Assembly: GCF_001625445.1 (NCBI RefSeq) | Contig: NZ_LWHG01000011.1 | Span: 558,001-622,000, forward strand | Reading direction: 5' to 3' | From: Haladaptatus sp. R4 | GTDB lineage: Archaea; Halobacteriota; Halobacteria; Halobacteriales; Haladaptataceae | Length of the DNA stretch: 64,000 nucleotides | Shown here: positions 3,467-58,696 of the stretch, one piece after another | How the letters are laid out: every line of letters begins with the position of its first letter | How positions within the stretch are numbered: the stretch's first letter is position 1 | Position numbers and translations under genes: made by a program | Notes under the pieces: model-generated | Told to the model about the DNA's origin: nothing | The model's input: only the letters and a program-made list of their open reading frames with translations | Database searches by the model: none

Positions 3467-4123
3467 TTACAGCGGAAGCCACGGCGAACGGAGGTCGTGA
3501 TGGGGAAAATGCCACCGCTCCTCCCGTCCTGCCTCGACGCGATATTCGATGACGCCGTCGAACAGCGGTTCGAGGGCCGTCACGAGTTCGTGGTCGTACG
3601 GTCGCGGCAGGACGTAGTGACCCATCCCGTTCGCACCACGGACTTGCCCACCGACGATGCCGAGAAACTGCCGAACGAGCGTCGGATCGTACCGGGTCAA
3701 CATCGACCCAAGCGAGTCGAGGCCGAATCGGAGTTCGCCCGGCTGAAAGTTCCTCGAACCCTCGAACGAGGTTATCGTCTCCGAAATAGAACTCGTGAGT
3801 TCCCGAATACCAGAATCGACGTCGACGACCGGCGCGGAAATGTGGGGCGGTATCGACACACCGTCGTGTGAGATGACGGTGGCGGTCTCGTCCAACGCCG
3901 CCGTCGGCAATCGTTCGTATACCACTGTCCGTGGCGTCCCCGAGAGGACGGCGACGCGAAATCGGCGCTCTTCAGGGTCGCCGAACAGCTTCCGACTTGC
4001 CGCCGAGAGCACGGAATCCGGAACGGAACCGACGAGCAGGAGGTTACACCCCTCCCGTTTCAACCGCTGGAGTGTTCGCTCGAACTCCAGCGCACCCGTC
4101 TCGTCGGTTTCACTCCTCCGCAT
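3467..4123 (-). CDS. DUF7504 family protein (degenerate RecA/KaiC-like), stand-alone
   Basis: A 218-residue protein of a haloarchaeal family with no established function. It begins with a Rossmann/RecA-like strand, CNLLLVGSVPDSVLSAASRK, where a P-loop would be expected, but no GxxxxGK is present, so ATP binding is doubtful. The C-terminal half has ELRFGLDSLGSML and NGMGHYVLPRPYD, shared almost position by position with the C-terminal part of the protein at 55079-56002. Its own TATA element lies at about -28. It sits between the dephospho-CoA kinase gene and rps24e, interrupting an otherwise conserved archaeal superoperon. The family name is from memory of haloarchaeal annotations. Confidence 0.7.
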   Translation of the reverse strand: MRRSETDETGALEFERTLQRLKREGCNLLLVGSVPDSVLSAASRKLFGDPEERRFRVAVLSGTPRTVVYERLPTAALDETATVISHDGVSIPPHISAPVVDVDSGIRELTSSISETITSFEGSRNFQPGELRFGLDSLGSMLTRYDPTLVRQFLGIVGGQVRGANGMGHYVLPRPYDHELVTALEPLFDGVIEYRVEAGREERWHFPHHDLRSPWLPL

Positions 4124-52463: not shown

Positions 52464-52922
52464 TCAGTCGTACTGCTGGTGTGCCCGGTTCAACATTCCC
52501 GCCGCTGGCTCACCGTACTCGTAGCCCGGAACGATCCCTTGCATCCACGTCCCCTCGGCGAAATCCACGATAGCCTTGGCGTCGTCGGCCGCCTTGTCGC
52601 TCCCCGAGAACTCGACCGAGAGAACTACTTCGTCCCCGTCGCGCTCGACCGTCGGCGGCGTCGCATCGTCCGCCGAAACGACGCTGTGAGCGTCTTCCAA
52701 CCGTAGTTCGAGCGTTTCGAACCAGCCGGATTCGACCACGTCGGCGACCGGTTCGTCCGTCACGACGGCCGACAACGTCGGCATTCGTACGGTCACTTCG
52801 ATGCTATCGTCCACCGTGACAGAGCCGTCGAACGGCGTCGTGGTTACGACGTACTCCTCGTCGTCGTCTTCGAATCCGTCGTGGAGACGAAACGCCCGTT
52901 CGACCGCGTCCTTCCGATTCAT
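52464..52922 (-). CDS. DUF5813 family protein
   Basis: A 152-residue protein: MNRKDAVERAFRLHDGFEDD, EYVVTTTPFDGSVTV, IEVTVRMPTLSAVV, then the C-terminal GIVPGYEYGEPAAGMLNRAH. Only in haloarchaea as far as I know, function unknown. ATG 52922 matches the family start; the reading frame is open upstream. It lies 32 bp after the CHAT gene on the same strand and may be cotranscribed. Confidence 0.75.
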   Translation of the reverse strand: MNRKDAVERAFRLHDGFEDDDEEYVVTTTPFDGSVTVDDSIEVTVRMPTLSAVVTDEPVADVVESGWFETLELRLEDAHSVVSADDATPPTVERDGDEVVLSVEFSGSDKAADDAKAIVDFAEGTWMQGIVPGYEYGEPAAGMLNRAHQQYD

Positions 52923-52954: not shown

Positions 52955-55066
52955 TTACGAGAGGTCCCGACGGACGTCGATCTCGGACGACCACCGCATC
53001 TCGTCGTCGTACATGACCGGCGTCTCCGCGAGACCGAAACACCGTTGCAGTTCGTCTCCCGTGAGCGTGAACGTCGGGAGATCGCCGCCGACGAGGAAGT
53101 ATCGTTCTACGCCGTCGATGAACGGCATGGCGAACGATCCGATCGGGTTCCGACTCGTCGGAAACATGCGCATACGGAACTCGTACTCGTCGCCGCCCAA
53201 CGGTTCGACGAAGAAGATGGTCGGTGCACTCTCCGACTGGACGACTTGGATGCCGCCGTCACCCACGACGACGTACTGATTGCCGACGAGTCGGCGACGC
53301 TTGGCGATCGAAAGCGCCGCCCGGAGCGGGAACCCGGCGTTGAGCAGTCTGGCAATCGTCCGTCCGATGACCGTCGCGCCGGCGTTTCCTATCTCGCTGT
53401 ACGTGACGATGCCGCCGACGCTTCCCGCCTCGACGAGTCGCTTTCCGGGGACGTAGGACCGACACGCGTTCAACAGGAACATGTCCACGCCGATGTCTCC
53501 GACATCGGCGGGGTGGAGCAGTCCGTCGTGGCAGACGAACGCCTCGTTTTCGACGTGGCCGATGTAGTGGAAGAAGTCCGTCGGTTCTCGAAGATGGTTT
53601 CGAAGCTCCGCCGTCGAGCAGTTCTGTTCGACGGTCACGTCGAACGGCAGTCGGTCGCGGTTGCCGTACAGGGTATCCTGATACTCCGCCCGCATCTTCG
53701 GGTCGTTGCAGACGATGGTGATTTTGGCGTCGTCCGCCGACTCCTCGCGGTCCAACCGGTGTTCGAACCCGGACGGGAGCAATTTGTTTCCACCGACCGG
53801 TGCACCGTCCCCGAGCCACGCGTGTTCGAGCGTGTCGGTGTCCGACGGGAGGACGTACCGTTCGTTCGGAACCGGTGACGACGGATACGTCGGGTTCGTT
53901 TCCGTCGTCCGCGTGAATTCGTTGATAGCAGTCGGTGATGCGACCGCGCTTTTCGCTTCTCGGCTCCGTGTCTTCACGTCGATAACCGGCAAGTCCCTGA
54001 GGACGTACGGGAGCTGTGCTACGTTTTTGGCTTCGGCGGTAAGTTGTAGCGTGAGCCGCCACGTCGGAAGTTCGTCCTCGATGAGCGAAAACGGTACGTC
54101 GAGATACGCATCGAGTTGCTCGGCGAGCGACGCATCGTAGAGGGCTGCAAAGTCGAGATCGAGCATCGATCCGACCTGCTCGCGTTCGTGCAACTCGACT
54201 CGATACAGTCCCTCCGTTCGGGTGAGACAGTCGAGGAACAGCGTCTGTTTGAGGACCCGCGCCACTTCGCCCTCGAACCCCCGTTCGGGATGATCGAGCG
54301 AGTGGATGCCCCTGTTCGTGACGATTCGGGGTGTCTCGCCGGGAACGACGGTCGCCCCGAGATAGTACGCGAGCGGGACGACGGGGAAAACGAACTCGTA
54401 TTCGGGTGGAACTTCGATGGTGATGCCCGTCTCCGGTGGTTGCAGGTCGTCCGGAATCCGAAGTTCGTCGCCGAATTCGACCACCGGGGGATGGCCCCTG
54501 AGGGTCGGAAACGAGCGCTCGGGGGAGAACGTCTTCAACGCCGACCCGAACGTCGAGACGGCGGCCATCACGTCCGCCGGATCGGTCGTCGTCGTCACCG
54601 TTCCCGCCGGTCGGGTGTGGTCCGACCGAGCGCCGATTTCGACGGCGACTTCGTCGCCGAACGAGATGTGGAATTCGTCGCCCCGAAGCTCGAACGTGAC
54701 GGACGATTCGACGCGTAAATACGTCTTCACCTTCGTCGTCAGTTCGATGTAATACTCACTGCTGGGGAGCGTTACTTCCTTTTCGTAGTCGACAGCGGCG
54801 ATCAGTTCCCCGGATTCGTCGCGGACGTAGGCGGAGATGACGAACGGGAACTCGATCCGATCCGTCCGGATGCGAGCGACGGCACCGACCGGTGCGTCGA
54901 ACTCTTCGACCGGGACGGGTTGTGGGGTCACCGGTCGAGTCGTACCGATCGAGTACTGACTCCGTTCGAGTGGGTCGATGATGGTCAACCCGACGGGGTC
55001 GTCCCGTAGTTGGAAGAGAGGTTGGACGCTTGTTCCGACGGTATCGGAAACGGGTACGTCACTCAT
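52955..55066 (-). CDS. CHAT-domain caspase-like protease
   Basis: A 703-residue protein. The N-terminal two-thirds (about 1-440) is beta-rich and unrecognised. The C-terminal CHAT domain (about 470-650) shows the caspase-fold elements: KITIVCNDPKMRAEYQ, catalytic His in FFHYIGHVENEAFVC, catalytic Cys in MFLLNACRSYVPGKRL, and GGIVTYSEIGNAGATVIGRT with a terminal AALSIAKRR. Both dyad residues are present, so it should be active; targets are unknown. It is 12 nt downstream of the HalOD1-DUF7504 gene, which probably controls it. Bacterial CHAT proteases (TPR-CHAT/Craspase, gasdermin activators) use other sensors. Confidence 0.85.
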   Translation of the reverse strand: MSDVPVSDTVGTSVQPLFQLRDDPVGLTIIDPLERSQYSIGTTRPVTPQPVPVEEFDAPVGAVARIRTDRIEFPFVISAYVRDESGELIAAVDYEKEVTLPSSEYYIELTTKVKTYLRVESSVTFELRGDEFHISFGDEVAVEIGARSDHTRPAGTVTTTTDPADVMAAVSTFGSALKTFSPERSFPTLRGHPPVVEFGDELRIPDDLQPPETGITIEVPPEYEFVFPVVPLAYYLGATVVPGETPRIVTNRGIHSLDHPERGFEGEVARVLKQTLFLDCLTRTEGLYRVELHEREQVGSMLDLDFAALYDASLAEQLDAYLDVPFSLIEDELPTWRLTLQLTAEAKNVAQLPYVLRDLPVIDVKTRSREAKSAVASPTAINEFTRTTETNPTYPSSPVPNERYVLPSDTDTLEHAWLGDGAPVGGNKLLPSGFEHRLDREESADDAKITIVCNDPKMRAEYQDTLYGNRDRLPFDVTVEQNCSTAELRNHLREPTDFFHYIGHVENEAFVCHDGLLHPADVGDIGVDMFLLNACRSYVPGKRLVEAGSVGGIVTYSEIGNAGATVIGRTIARLLNAGFPLRAALSIAKRRRLVGNQYVVVGDGGIQVVQSESAPTIFFVEPLGGDEYEFRMRMFPTSRNPIGSFAMPFIDGVERYFLVGGDLPTFTLTGDELQRCFGLAETPVMYDDEMRWSSEIDVRRDLS

Positions 55067-55078
55067 TGTTGGATGGTT

Positions 55079-56002
55079 TCAGAGGTCGAACCACTCGGTC
55101 GTATGATTCGTTTCACGGAGATACCAGCGCTGTTCCGGGCCGCTCTCCCCCGCGCGGAGTTCGATTATCGCGTCGAACTTGTGGGCTATCGCGGTGACTT
55201 GGGGAGACTCTCGCTCGATGGGGAGAACGTAGTGGGCCATTCCGGCGACGTCCTTGATGCGCTCGCAGATCGGACCGAGGAACGCATCGACTTCGGCGTC
55301 GTCGTGGTTTTCCACCAACGGACGGAGCGTGTCGAAGCAGAATCGAAGCTCCGCAGGGGCAAAGCCCCCATGACTCTCGTCGAGTTTATCGATGGTCTCG
55401 ATGATCCTGTTTCGAAACTCACCGATATCGCCGTCGACGCGTTCGACGGTCAGGGTGTCCGACATCGTCGATTCGGTGCCAGCGGACCGCGCACCGGTAT
55501 GATAGTCCACGACGTGAGCGTTGGAACCCATGCCGTTGGCCATCGCGAGGCGACTGCGTGCCGTCGCGATGCTCCGGTCGTGGAGCGCGAAGAGTCGCGT
55601 CCGATCGTGTGCCATCTCACCGAGAAGCGGAACGCTGGCCGCGTCGATCACGGAATCCGGAACCGCCCCGACGACGAGGAGATTCCCCCCGAGTTGCTTG
55701 ATACGCGCCAAGCCGGGTTGCACCGTGATGGTTCCGTCACCACGGATGGTCACGTGATGACCGTACAGCGAAAACGAGAGTCGTCCACCCCGTCGCGCCA
55801 CGCCGTCGTCGCGTGGTTTGAAGAGCCTGTCGAGCGCCTCCGGATCGATGACGTCGTAGAGTTGTTCGGGGATGTCCGAAGGTTCGACACCCGCCACGTC
55901 CGCAACAGCCACCGTTACCGTCGTACTGAGAGACTGCGGGCCGGTAAGGTCGTGTTGCACGCGATGGACGTCGCGTTCGTCAGAGGGACCATCCTCGTTC
56001 AT
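55079..56002 (-). CDS. HalOD1 domain fused to DUF7504
   Basis: A 307-residue protein. Residues about 25-95 match the haloarchaeal output domain HalOD1: QSLSTTVTVAVADVAGVEP, LYDVIDPEALDRLFKP and a GHHVTIRGDGTITV end. The rest matches the DUF7504 gene at 3467: RIKQLGGNLLVVGAVPDSVI at the P-loop position without GKT, ELRFCFDTLRPLVENHDDAE and GMAHYVLPIERE. HalOD1 usually sits in signalling proteins, so this looks like a signal-input module. It is the promoter-proximal gene of the CHAT operon. Confidence 0.78.
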   Translation of the reverse strand: MNEDGPSDERDVHRVQHDLTGPQSLSTTVTVAVADVAGVEPSDIPEQLYDVIDPEALDRLFKPRDDGVARRGGRLSFSLYGHHVTIRGDGTITVQPGLARIKQLGGNLLVVGAVPDSVIDAASVPLLGEMAHDRTRLFALHDRSIATARSRLAMANGMGSNAHVVDYHTGARSAGTESTMSDTLTVERVDGDIGEFRNRIIETIDKLDESHGGFAPAELRFCFDTLRPLVENHDDAEVDAFLGPICERIKDVAGMAHYVLPIERESPQVTAIAHKFDAIIELRAGESGPEQRWYLRETNHTTEWFDL

Positions 56003-56325: not shown

Positions 56326-57234
56326 TCACTCGACCCACGAGTACGCACGGGAGGACAACCACGGAACCACGATCAACAGCACGCCGAGACAGCCCACGAG
56401 GAGCGCCACGGTATCGCCGAGCGTCCACTCGTTCGTCGTGCTTTCACCGCCATTCGACGGCGGATTTGGTCCGCTGGAATCGCCCCCAACCGTCGAGTTC
56501 GTCGTCGCGGGTATCGTTTCCGTCCGTGTCCTCGTTCGTCGGTTGGTAGTCGCCCACGTCGTTTTTCGTCCTGCACTGGTCGTCGCAGTCTTCGTAGACG
56601 CCGGTGGTTCCGTCGTTTCGGTCGTGCTCGGAGCCGTTTTCGTCTCGGTCGTCGCTGTCGTGGCCGTCGGAACCGCGGTGGCCGTCGGTGTGGCAGTCGT
56701 CGCGGTCGTCGTCCGTGTCGTCGCTGGGACTGTCGTCGTAGTTGCCGTCGTGGTTGCCGTCGTCGTGGTGGTCGCTGTCGTCGAAGTCGAGGTTTGCGTA
56801 GTCGTTGGAACCGTCGTGGTGGCAGTGGCCGTCGTCGAAGTCGTGGTTTGTGTGGTCGTTGGAACCGTCGTCGAGGTCGCTGTCGTCGAGGTCGTGGTTT
56901 GTGCGGTCGTGGTGGTCGTCGAAGTCGTGGTCGTCGCCGTCGATGTCGTTCCAGTTGCACTCGTCGTTGTCGATGTCGGTGTCGTTGTAGCCGTTGCAGT
57001 CGCTGTCGTCGCCGTGGCTGTGGCCGTCGTCGTTCCGTTCGTCGTCGTGTTGGTTGTCGTCCCGTTCGTCGTCGTTCTGTTAGTTGTCGTCGTCCCGTTC
57101 GTCGTCGTATTACCGGCCGCGGCGGAGGCGACTTGCGGTCCGTCGGGTCCGCCAATCGTCGAACTCGATATTCCGGCGAGAAGGAGTCCCGCAATGGAGA
57201 CGAGGAGCAGCACGCGGGCTGTCGAAGTTCGCAT
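56326..57234 (-). CDS. secreted Thr-rich (mucin-like) cell-surface protein
   Basis: A 302-residue protein. Signal peptide RVLLLVSIAGLLLAGISSS with cleavage near VASAAA; residues about 40-200 are Thr/Ala/Val low complexity with recurring TTTVPTTTQT and TSTTAT units; a transition TNRRTRTRTETIPATTN; and a C-terminal helix TVALLVGCLGVLLIVVPWL (about 275-293) as anchor. Probably O-glycosylated and surface-anchored. ATG 57234 is used; an in-frame ATG lies at 57303. Confidence 0.78.
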   Translation of the reverse strand: MRTSTARVLLLVSIAGLLLAGISSSTIGGPDGPQVASAAAGNTTTNGTTTTNRTTTNGTTTNTTTNGTTTATATATTATATATTTPTSTTTSATGTTSTATTTTSTTTTTAQTTTSTTATSTTVPTTTQTTTSTTATATTTVPTTTQTSTSTTATTTTTATTTATTTTVPATTRTTTATTATPTATAVPTATTATTETKTAPSTTETTEPPASTKTATTSAGRKTTWATTNRRTRTRTETIPATTNSTVGGDSSGPNPPSNGGESTTNEWTLGDTVALLVGCLGVLLIVVPWLSSRAYSWVE

Positions 57235-57538
57235 GTGAACAGGGGACATAGATCGCTGCTCATCGATTCCCATCATCGACTGATTATTGTTACGATTATC
57301 CATGCAAAACTGCAGAATACTACGATATTTTTCGAGAAATTACCCTGTTTGTGGTCTATTTATGGAAGGGATTCTAAAACTACCAATTCATTGATAAAGG
57401 AACTCACACACCAATGATCAATAGTTGCCATCTCTCCATCGAAGGGATTCGAGCGGGTATTATTTACTCACTGAACGGATTCGATCCTCTTCCAGTATAG
57501 TTCGGTAGGGGGACAATTCGATGCTCGTTGAATTCAGA
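57235..57538. other. 304-bp A/T-rich spacer
   Basis: No gene. Marked by low GC relative to the window, for example the stretch at 57300-57420 with many T/A runs. It probably carries the promoter of the Thr-rich gene; the composition hints at recent acquisition. Confidence 0.5.
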
Positions 57539-58495: not shown

Positions 58496-58517
58496 ATGCG
58501 AGGGATGGGATTCGAAC
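58496..58517 (-). repeat. copy of the tRNA-Leu 3' end
   Basis: A 22-bp exact duplicate of 58611-58632, holding the acceptor stem and T-loop of the tRNA-Leu gene in the same orientation, 115 bp away. Such tRNA-end duplications mark integration sites of mobile elements. Confidence 0.65.
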
Positions 58518-58605: not shown

Positions 58606-58612
58606 GACTCAT

Positions 58613-58696
58613 GCGAGGGATGGGATTCGAACCCATGGACGTCTACACGAGCGGGTCTTAAGCCCGCCGCCGTTGGCCTGGCTTGGCAACCCTCGC
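58613..58696 (-). tRNA. tRNA-Leu (anticodon UAA)
   Basis: An 84-nt tRNA with a long variable arm as expected for Leu. Acceptor GCGAGGG pairs with CCCTCGC; anticodon stem GCGGG/CCCGC with loop CTTAAGA, anticodon TAA (58658-58660); T-arm ATGGG-TTCGAAT-CCCAT. No CCA is encoded. Confidence 0.93.

Follow-up and report, generated by a model that had tools for sequence, protein, structure and literature searches.

A recurrent gene pair of CHAT-family and KaiC-like DUF7504 proteins in Halobacteria, a candidate regulator-protease system

Gene organization of the locus

The window analysed here, a 64,000-nt stretch of the Haladaptatus sp. R4 genome (contig NZ_LWHG01000011.1, positions 558,001 to 622,000), encodes a HalOD1-DUF7504 protein followed by a predicted caspase-fold protein of the CHAT family. 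The relevant features, numbered within the window, are:

55079..56002, minus strand: HalOD1-DUF7504 protein, 307 aa, intact, putative regulator and first gene of the pair (Pfam, structure model, Foldseek)
52955..55066, minus strand: CHAT-family protein (predicted clan CD, caspase fold), 703 aa, intact (open reading frame, structure model, Foldseek, dyad conservation)
53555..53557, minus strand: codon of the putative catalytic His504 (FFHYIGH), computed from the ORF start at 55066
53462..53464, minus strand: codon of the putative catalytic Cys535 (LLNACRS), computed from the ORF start at 55066
52464..52922, minus strand: DUF5813 gene, a neighbour judged to lie outside the system (single-copy, beside Lrp/TrkA in genera without CHAT there)

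The CHAT gene starts 12 nt behind the HalOD1-DUF7504 gene on the same strand. The open reading frames bear out this spacing of two intact genes, as described in an earlier note on the sequence, as well as its placement of DUF5813 32 nt downstream of the CHAT gene. The neighbours of the pair are Lrp/TrkA/PDH genes. The suggestion that DUF5813 is a third member was rejected, since it is a core single-copy gene of an Lrp-TrkA-Lrp block that also occurs in other genera, where CHAT is missing from this position. The sister genus (G010, L223) has an orthologue of the HalOD1-DUF7504 gene immediately ahead of DUF5813, with CHAT absent between them. In a congener (G008, L105), CHAT is reduced to a 72-aa remnant while the HalOD1-DUF7504 gene is retained under constraint, so the partner must also act without a CHAT protein of its own.

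The region from 52.47 to 56.05 kb is collinear in Haladaptatus, which places the pair outside any accessory island; only the segment from 56.05 to 58.49 kb, beside tRNA-Leu, varies. The 3' end of tRNA-Leu(TAA) is present as an exact 22-nt direct duplication (58496-58517 and 58611-58632, 115 nt apart; the interval is listed as 58611-58696), and the adjacent segment looks like an old integration site because it differs between Haladaptatus species. Thus, the accessory region with a tRNA-end duplication proposed in the earlier note exists at 56.05-58.49 kb but does not include the pair, which is syntenic across the genus. The variable segment also encodes a secreted-looking, 325-aa Thr-rich low-complexity repeat protein without a Pfam match (56326-57303, minus strand).

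Fold and catalytic dyad of the CHAT protein

The 703-aa protein yielded no Pfam match at E<1, falling below every Pfam model including PF12770 (CHAT), and by itself matched neither NCBIfam nor PADLOC. PF12770 is matched by 19 of 63 relatives of the protein (best E 7.6e-5). Just one of 25 genome matches to this model exceeds the cut-off, the 703-aa family lying mostly below it, and the model is silent in the H. volcanii control genome and misses many family members. Sequence searches of the PDB with the CHAT and DUF7504 profiles returned nothing significant, with KaiC just at E 0.5. The structure model of the CHAT protein, for which 63 relatives were used, has high confidence (pLDDT 88.9, pTM 0.90), and its best Foldseek matches in the PDB are gingipain K (E 3e-7) and the SAVED-CHAT filament (4e-7), accompanied by separase, the TPR-CHAT protease of Craspase and, at 1e-2, procaspase-3. 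Taken together, the PF12770 matches among relatives and the clan CD peptidase matches of the model place the protein in a family that is predicted to be caspase-fold (clan CD); with the conserved dyad described below, this agrees with the CHAT caspase-like identity originally proposed from the sequence.

The model comprises a beta-rich region (residues ~17-160), an alpha/beta region (~160-365) containing the invariant ERSFPTLRGHPP motif, the CHAT protease domain that holds H504 and C535 (~440-620) and a C-terminal tail extending to residue 703. Apart from the dyad, the most conserved stretch is RSFPTLRGHPP in the N-terminal half.

The two motifs in which the earlier note had recognized the catalytic residues, FFHYIGH and LLNACRS, correspond to residues 498-504 and 531-537. 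In the model, His504 closes a strand formed by residues 496-503 and Cys535 comes after a strand at 527-534, as in the clan CD arrangement. Both residues are kept in 74 of 77 aligned relatives and in all 80 members of a second relative set, the three exceptions being half of one frameshifted copy and two degenerate paralogues. Close to the dyad, H500, C512, N533 and S537 are almost invariant in all but pseudo-protease members. The latter form an 11-member paralogue group from other haloarchaeal families (L102, L103, L224-L232), in which His and Cys are both lost and the N-terminal half with its LRGHPP/LRGYPP motif is retained. Since these paralogues lose both residues jointly while the N-terminal motif stays, retention of the dyad elsewhere appears to be selected and points to function.

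The DUF7504 partner

The 307-aa partner combines HalOD1 (residues 23-96, E 7e-24, 84 bits against a cut-off of 26) with DUF7504 (residues 105-282, E 6e-47, 161 bits against a cut-off of 27); both domains of the composition given in the earlier note are thus far above their Pfam cut-offs. It also matches the NCBIfam DdfA model at 1.8e-17, which is below the cut-off and involves the HalOD1 part alone. The structure model (pLDDT 87.8) assigns DUF7504 a KaiC-like fold, with the KaiC CI domain matched at a Foldseek E of ~1e-8. All 85 DUF7504 proteins encoded at CHAT loci lack the Walker A signature GxxxxGK, in keeping with the earlier reading of a RecA/KaiC-like domain without the Walker A lysine, and an active KaiC/RecA ATPase was therefore rejected despite the fold. 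Among DUF7504 proteins unlinked to CHAT, 7 of 20 keep the GK. These copies with intact Walker A (L206, L212, L218-L222), several of which adjoin a gene resembling those for CoA-binding proteins, likely represent the ancestral active form. The window itself contains a further DUF7504 gene without CHAT (3467-4123, minus strand), between genes for an S24e-like ribosomal protein and a dephospho-CoA kinase-like protein.

HalOD1 is present in 27 of 73 CHAT-linked DUF7504 proteins and lacking in most, and its distribution suggests that it is an add-on of one clade. Galperin et al. (2018; PMC5847659) had already noted proteins, termed HalOD1-iKaiC, in which HalOD1 is joined to a KaiC domain that they called 'divergent and possibly inactivated', and the fusion as such is therefore known.

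Distribution of the CHAT family

The CHAT family is carried by 51 of 59 relatives searched, with numbers per genome that range from one copy to ~20 matches. A scan of 84,980 species identified 524 relatives, the best 80 of which all belong to Halobacteria; across the phylum, the family is found in most Halobacteria sampled plus four genomes of one other family. The distant relatives outside Halobacteria (L186-L189) adjoin dnaG and a UPF0146-like gene, and one of the four lacks both catalytic residues. On haloarchaeal plasmids, members are mostly annotated as 'hypothetical protein' and rarely as 'CHAT domain-containing' or 'caspase family'; a few members already carry a label in RefSeq. No relatives were detected in 2.9 million viral contigs.

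The Haladaptatus sp. R4 genome encodes 11 CHAT loci. In one of these (L079), a frameshift divides the gene into parts of 411 and 287 aa, reflecting either decay or a sequencing error; at another (L076), a single DUF7504 gene is followed by three tandem CHAT genes. Exactly one CHAT copy is present in each of the 15 genomes searched from the genus to which H. marisrubri belongs, which we infer to be Haloferax from the matching gene coordinates of L139 and G281, and the copies inspected in this genus are DUF7504-CHAT pairs. A core single-copy clade, not linked to DUF7504 in the set, lies beside tbsP, ycaO and glyA. Its members (L080-L087, L089, L090, L092, L095, L097, L099-L101, L104) are mostly found just upstream of tbsP and ycaO and opposite glyA, and this clade is conserved across most haloarchaeal families sampled.

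Recurrent pairing of CHAT with DUF7504

The earlier note had proposed tabulating how often CHAT genes adjoin DUF7504, and the pairing it described recurs across Halobacteria. In the 18 genomes in which both gene families were located, a DUF7504 gene lies within 1 kb of 33 of 77 CHAT places compared with ~0.9 expected, mostly directly upstream and on the same strand, and 42 of the 77 CHAT genes have no DUF7504 inside 3 kb. Among the best 80 of the 524 relatives, the pairing recurs across many genera. In another CHAT clade (L038, L039, L042, L044, L079), the upstream neighbour encodes a different protein of ~230-280 aa without a Pfam match, possibly a different regulator.

In a mirror-tree comparison, 72 DUF7504-CHAT pairs, mostly less than 110 bp apart, showed a correlation of r = 0.87, where null values reached 0.13 at most, a co-divergence that is also expected, at least in part, under operon co-inheritance alone. 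The DUF7504-linked state requires 16 changes on a 154-row tree compared with 51.5 when shuffled. All 27 HalOD1-fused partners fall with one CHAT clade (100% support), which spans Haladaptatus and Natrialbaceae genera such as Natronococcus, Natronorubrum and Natrialba. Both genes are under purifying selection, with dN/dS of 0.22-0.34 for CHAT and 0.08-0.24 for the partner.

No description of DUF7504 or of haloarchaeal CHAT proteases, including their pairing, was found in the open-licence literature. CHAT proteases and HalOD1-iKaiC are already known; the recurrent DUF7504-CHAT pairing was not found described. Within the papers searched, the earlier statement that no system of this composition had been described is supported.

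Proposed function and alternative explanations

We consider it probable that the two genes encode a regulator-protease pair for the signal-dependent cleavage of intracellular targets. The CHAT protein would be a cytoplasmic caspase-fold cysteine peptidase using His504 and Cys535, and its co-encoded partner would hold it in, or switch it from, an inactive state. The inactivated KaiC-like domain may serve as a binding scaffold and not as an ATPase; through the HalOD1 domain fused to it, the partner could be connected to haloarchaeal signalling. Upon a signal, the protease would cut one or few intracellular targets, resulting in regulated proteolysis in signalling or stress. CHAT-type and related proteases such as Craspase, SAVED-CHAT and separase stay inactive until a partner signals; control by the partner is proposed on the basis of this analogy and of the recurrent co-encoded dead KaiC-like protein, and we infer the roles of 'sensor' (partner) and 'effector' (CHAT). 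Sequences and models support the reading through the fold, dyad conservation, Walker A loss, recurrent pairing, co-divergence and purifying selection. The unlinked state of 42 of 77 CHAT genes, the position of a core clade beside tbsP/ycaO and the persistence of HalOD1-DUF7504 without CHAT in G008 and G010 count against it, as do the co-divergence expected under operon co-inheritance and the score of the 703-aa protein below every Pfam model. It seems improbable that the pair represents class-wide archaeal caspase signalling, in which inactive KaiC-like receptors, some with HalOD1, control CHAT and the single Haloferax copy underlies haloarchaeal caspase-like activity.

The main rival explanation, which we regard as unlikely, is an anti-virus or suicide effector: the CHAT protease would cause death or arrest of the cell once its partner has detected infection or damage, a mode of action known for CHAT proteases from some bacterial defence systems. 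In favour of this view, the CHAT effectors of Craspase and SAVED-CHAT rank with the nearest solved structures, the family is expanded, with 11 loci in the Haladaptatus sp. R4 genome, and also present on plasmids, and one congener (L105) has a decayed CHAT gene. However, defence genes are usually patchy in distribution, and this rival is weakened by the universality of the gene in Haloferax, where it is single-copy in 15 of 15 genomes, and by neighbourhoods made up largely of housekeeping genes, in which a scan run without a control set gave just a few dispersed PADLOC matches. In addition, relatives are absent from the 2.9 million viral contigs and neither protein of the pair has a PADLOC match; membership in a known anti-phage defence system was rejected, PADLOC having matched 0 families for both.

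A non-enzymatic DUF7504-CHAT signalling complex, in which the CHAT fold would provide a scaffold or a signalling domain and carry out no proteolysis, is also rather improbable. The paralogue group devoid of both catalytic residues persists, indicating that the fold can serve without catalysis, and the top conserved stretch besides the dyad lies in the N-terminal half; against this, His504, Cys535, H500, C512, N533 and S537 are almost invariant in all other members. Least probable in our view is adjacency without function, whereby an often-duplicated gene block is co-inherited and its products do not cooperate. While both families are expanded within the same genomes and unlinked copies of each exist, order and strand are fixed, adjacency occurs at many distinct genomic sites, and, in Haladaptatus as well as in Natrialbaceae genera, a single HalOD1 architecture goes together with a single CHAT clade.

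Clear homologues of caspases were considered absent from archaea (PMC3615174). In contrast, the predicted caspase-fold family described here, with its conserved dyad, is present in most of the 59 relatives and in every genome of the Haloferax genus searched. If the regulator-protease pair works as proposed, archaea would possess a regulated caspase-like protease whose regulator, a dead KaiC-like domain, is of a new kind, and the source of archaeal caspase-like activity could be tested by deleting a single gene in a tractable genus.

Comparison with known systems

The haloarchaeal proteins share the predicted clan CD fold, a His...Cys dyad and putative control by a dedicated partner with other CHAT peptidases (PF12770), including TPR-CHAT/Csx29 of Craspase and SAVED-CHAT. 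They differ from these systems in their N-terminal half, which consists of another beta plus alpha/beta region, in their archaeal host and in their partner, an inactive KaiC-like protein; a gRAMP, TPR or SAVED partner was not found at haloarchaeal CHAT. Craspase (type III-E) is characterized by gRAMP/Cas7-11 with neighbouring csx30/csx31 and by TPR repeats. Membership in this group was rejected given the Lrp/TrkA/PDH neighbours in the window and an N-terminal half that is not a TPR array, as was membership in cyclic nucleotide-activated SAVED-CHAT, SAVED being unmatched by Pfam or PADLOC.

HalOD1-iKaiC resembles the partner in joining HalOD1 to a divergent, possibly inactivated domain of the KaiC superfamily; the passages of its description considered here mention no CHAT partner (Galperin et al., 2018; PMC5847659), and most CHAT-linked DUF7504 proteins lack HalOD1. 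The disk-determining factor DdfA of Haloferax volcanii likewise shares HalOD1, and is encoded next to rdfA and sph3 and not next to CHAT (PMC10869688). Furthermore, a caspase-like (IETDase) activity, for which the gene is not known, has been reported in Haloferax volcanii (PMC3615174). This activity occurs in the same class of organisms, and a predicted caspase-fold protein is conserved across the genus Haloferax, making the haloarchaeal CHAT family a candidate, and not more, for the H. volcanii caspase-like activity.
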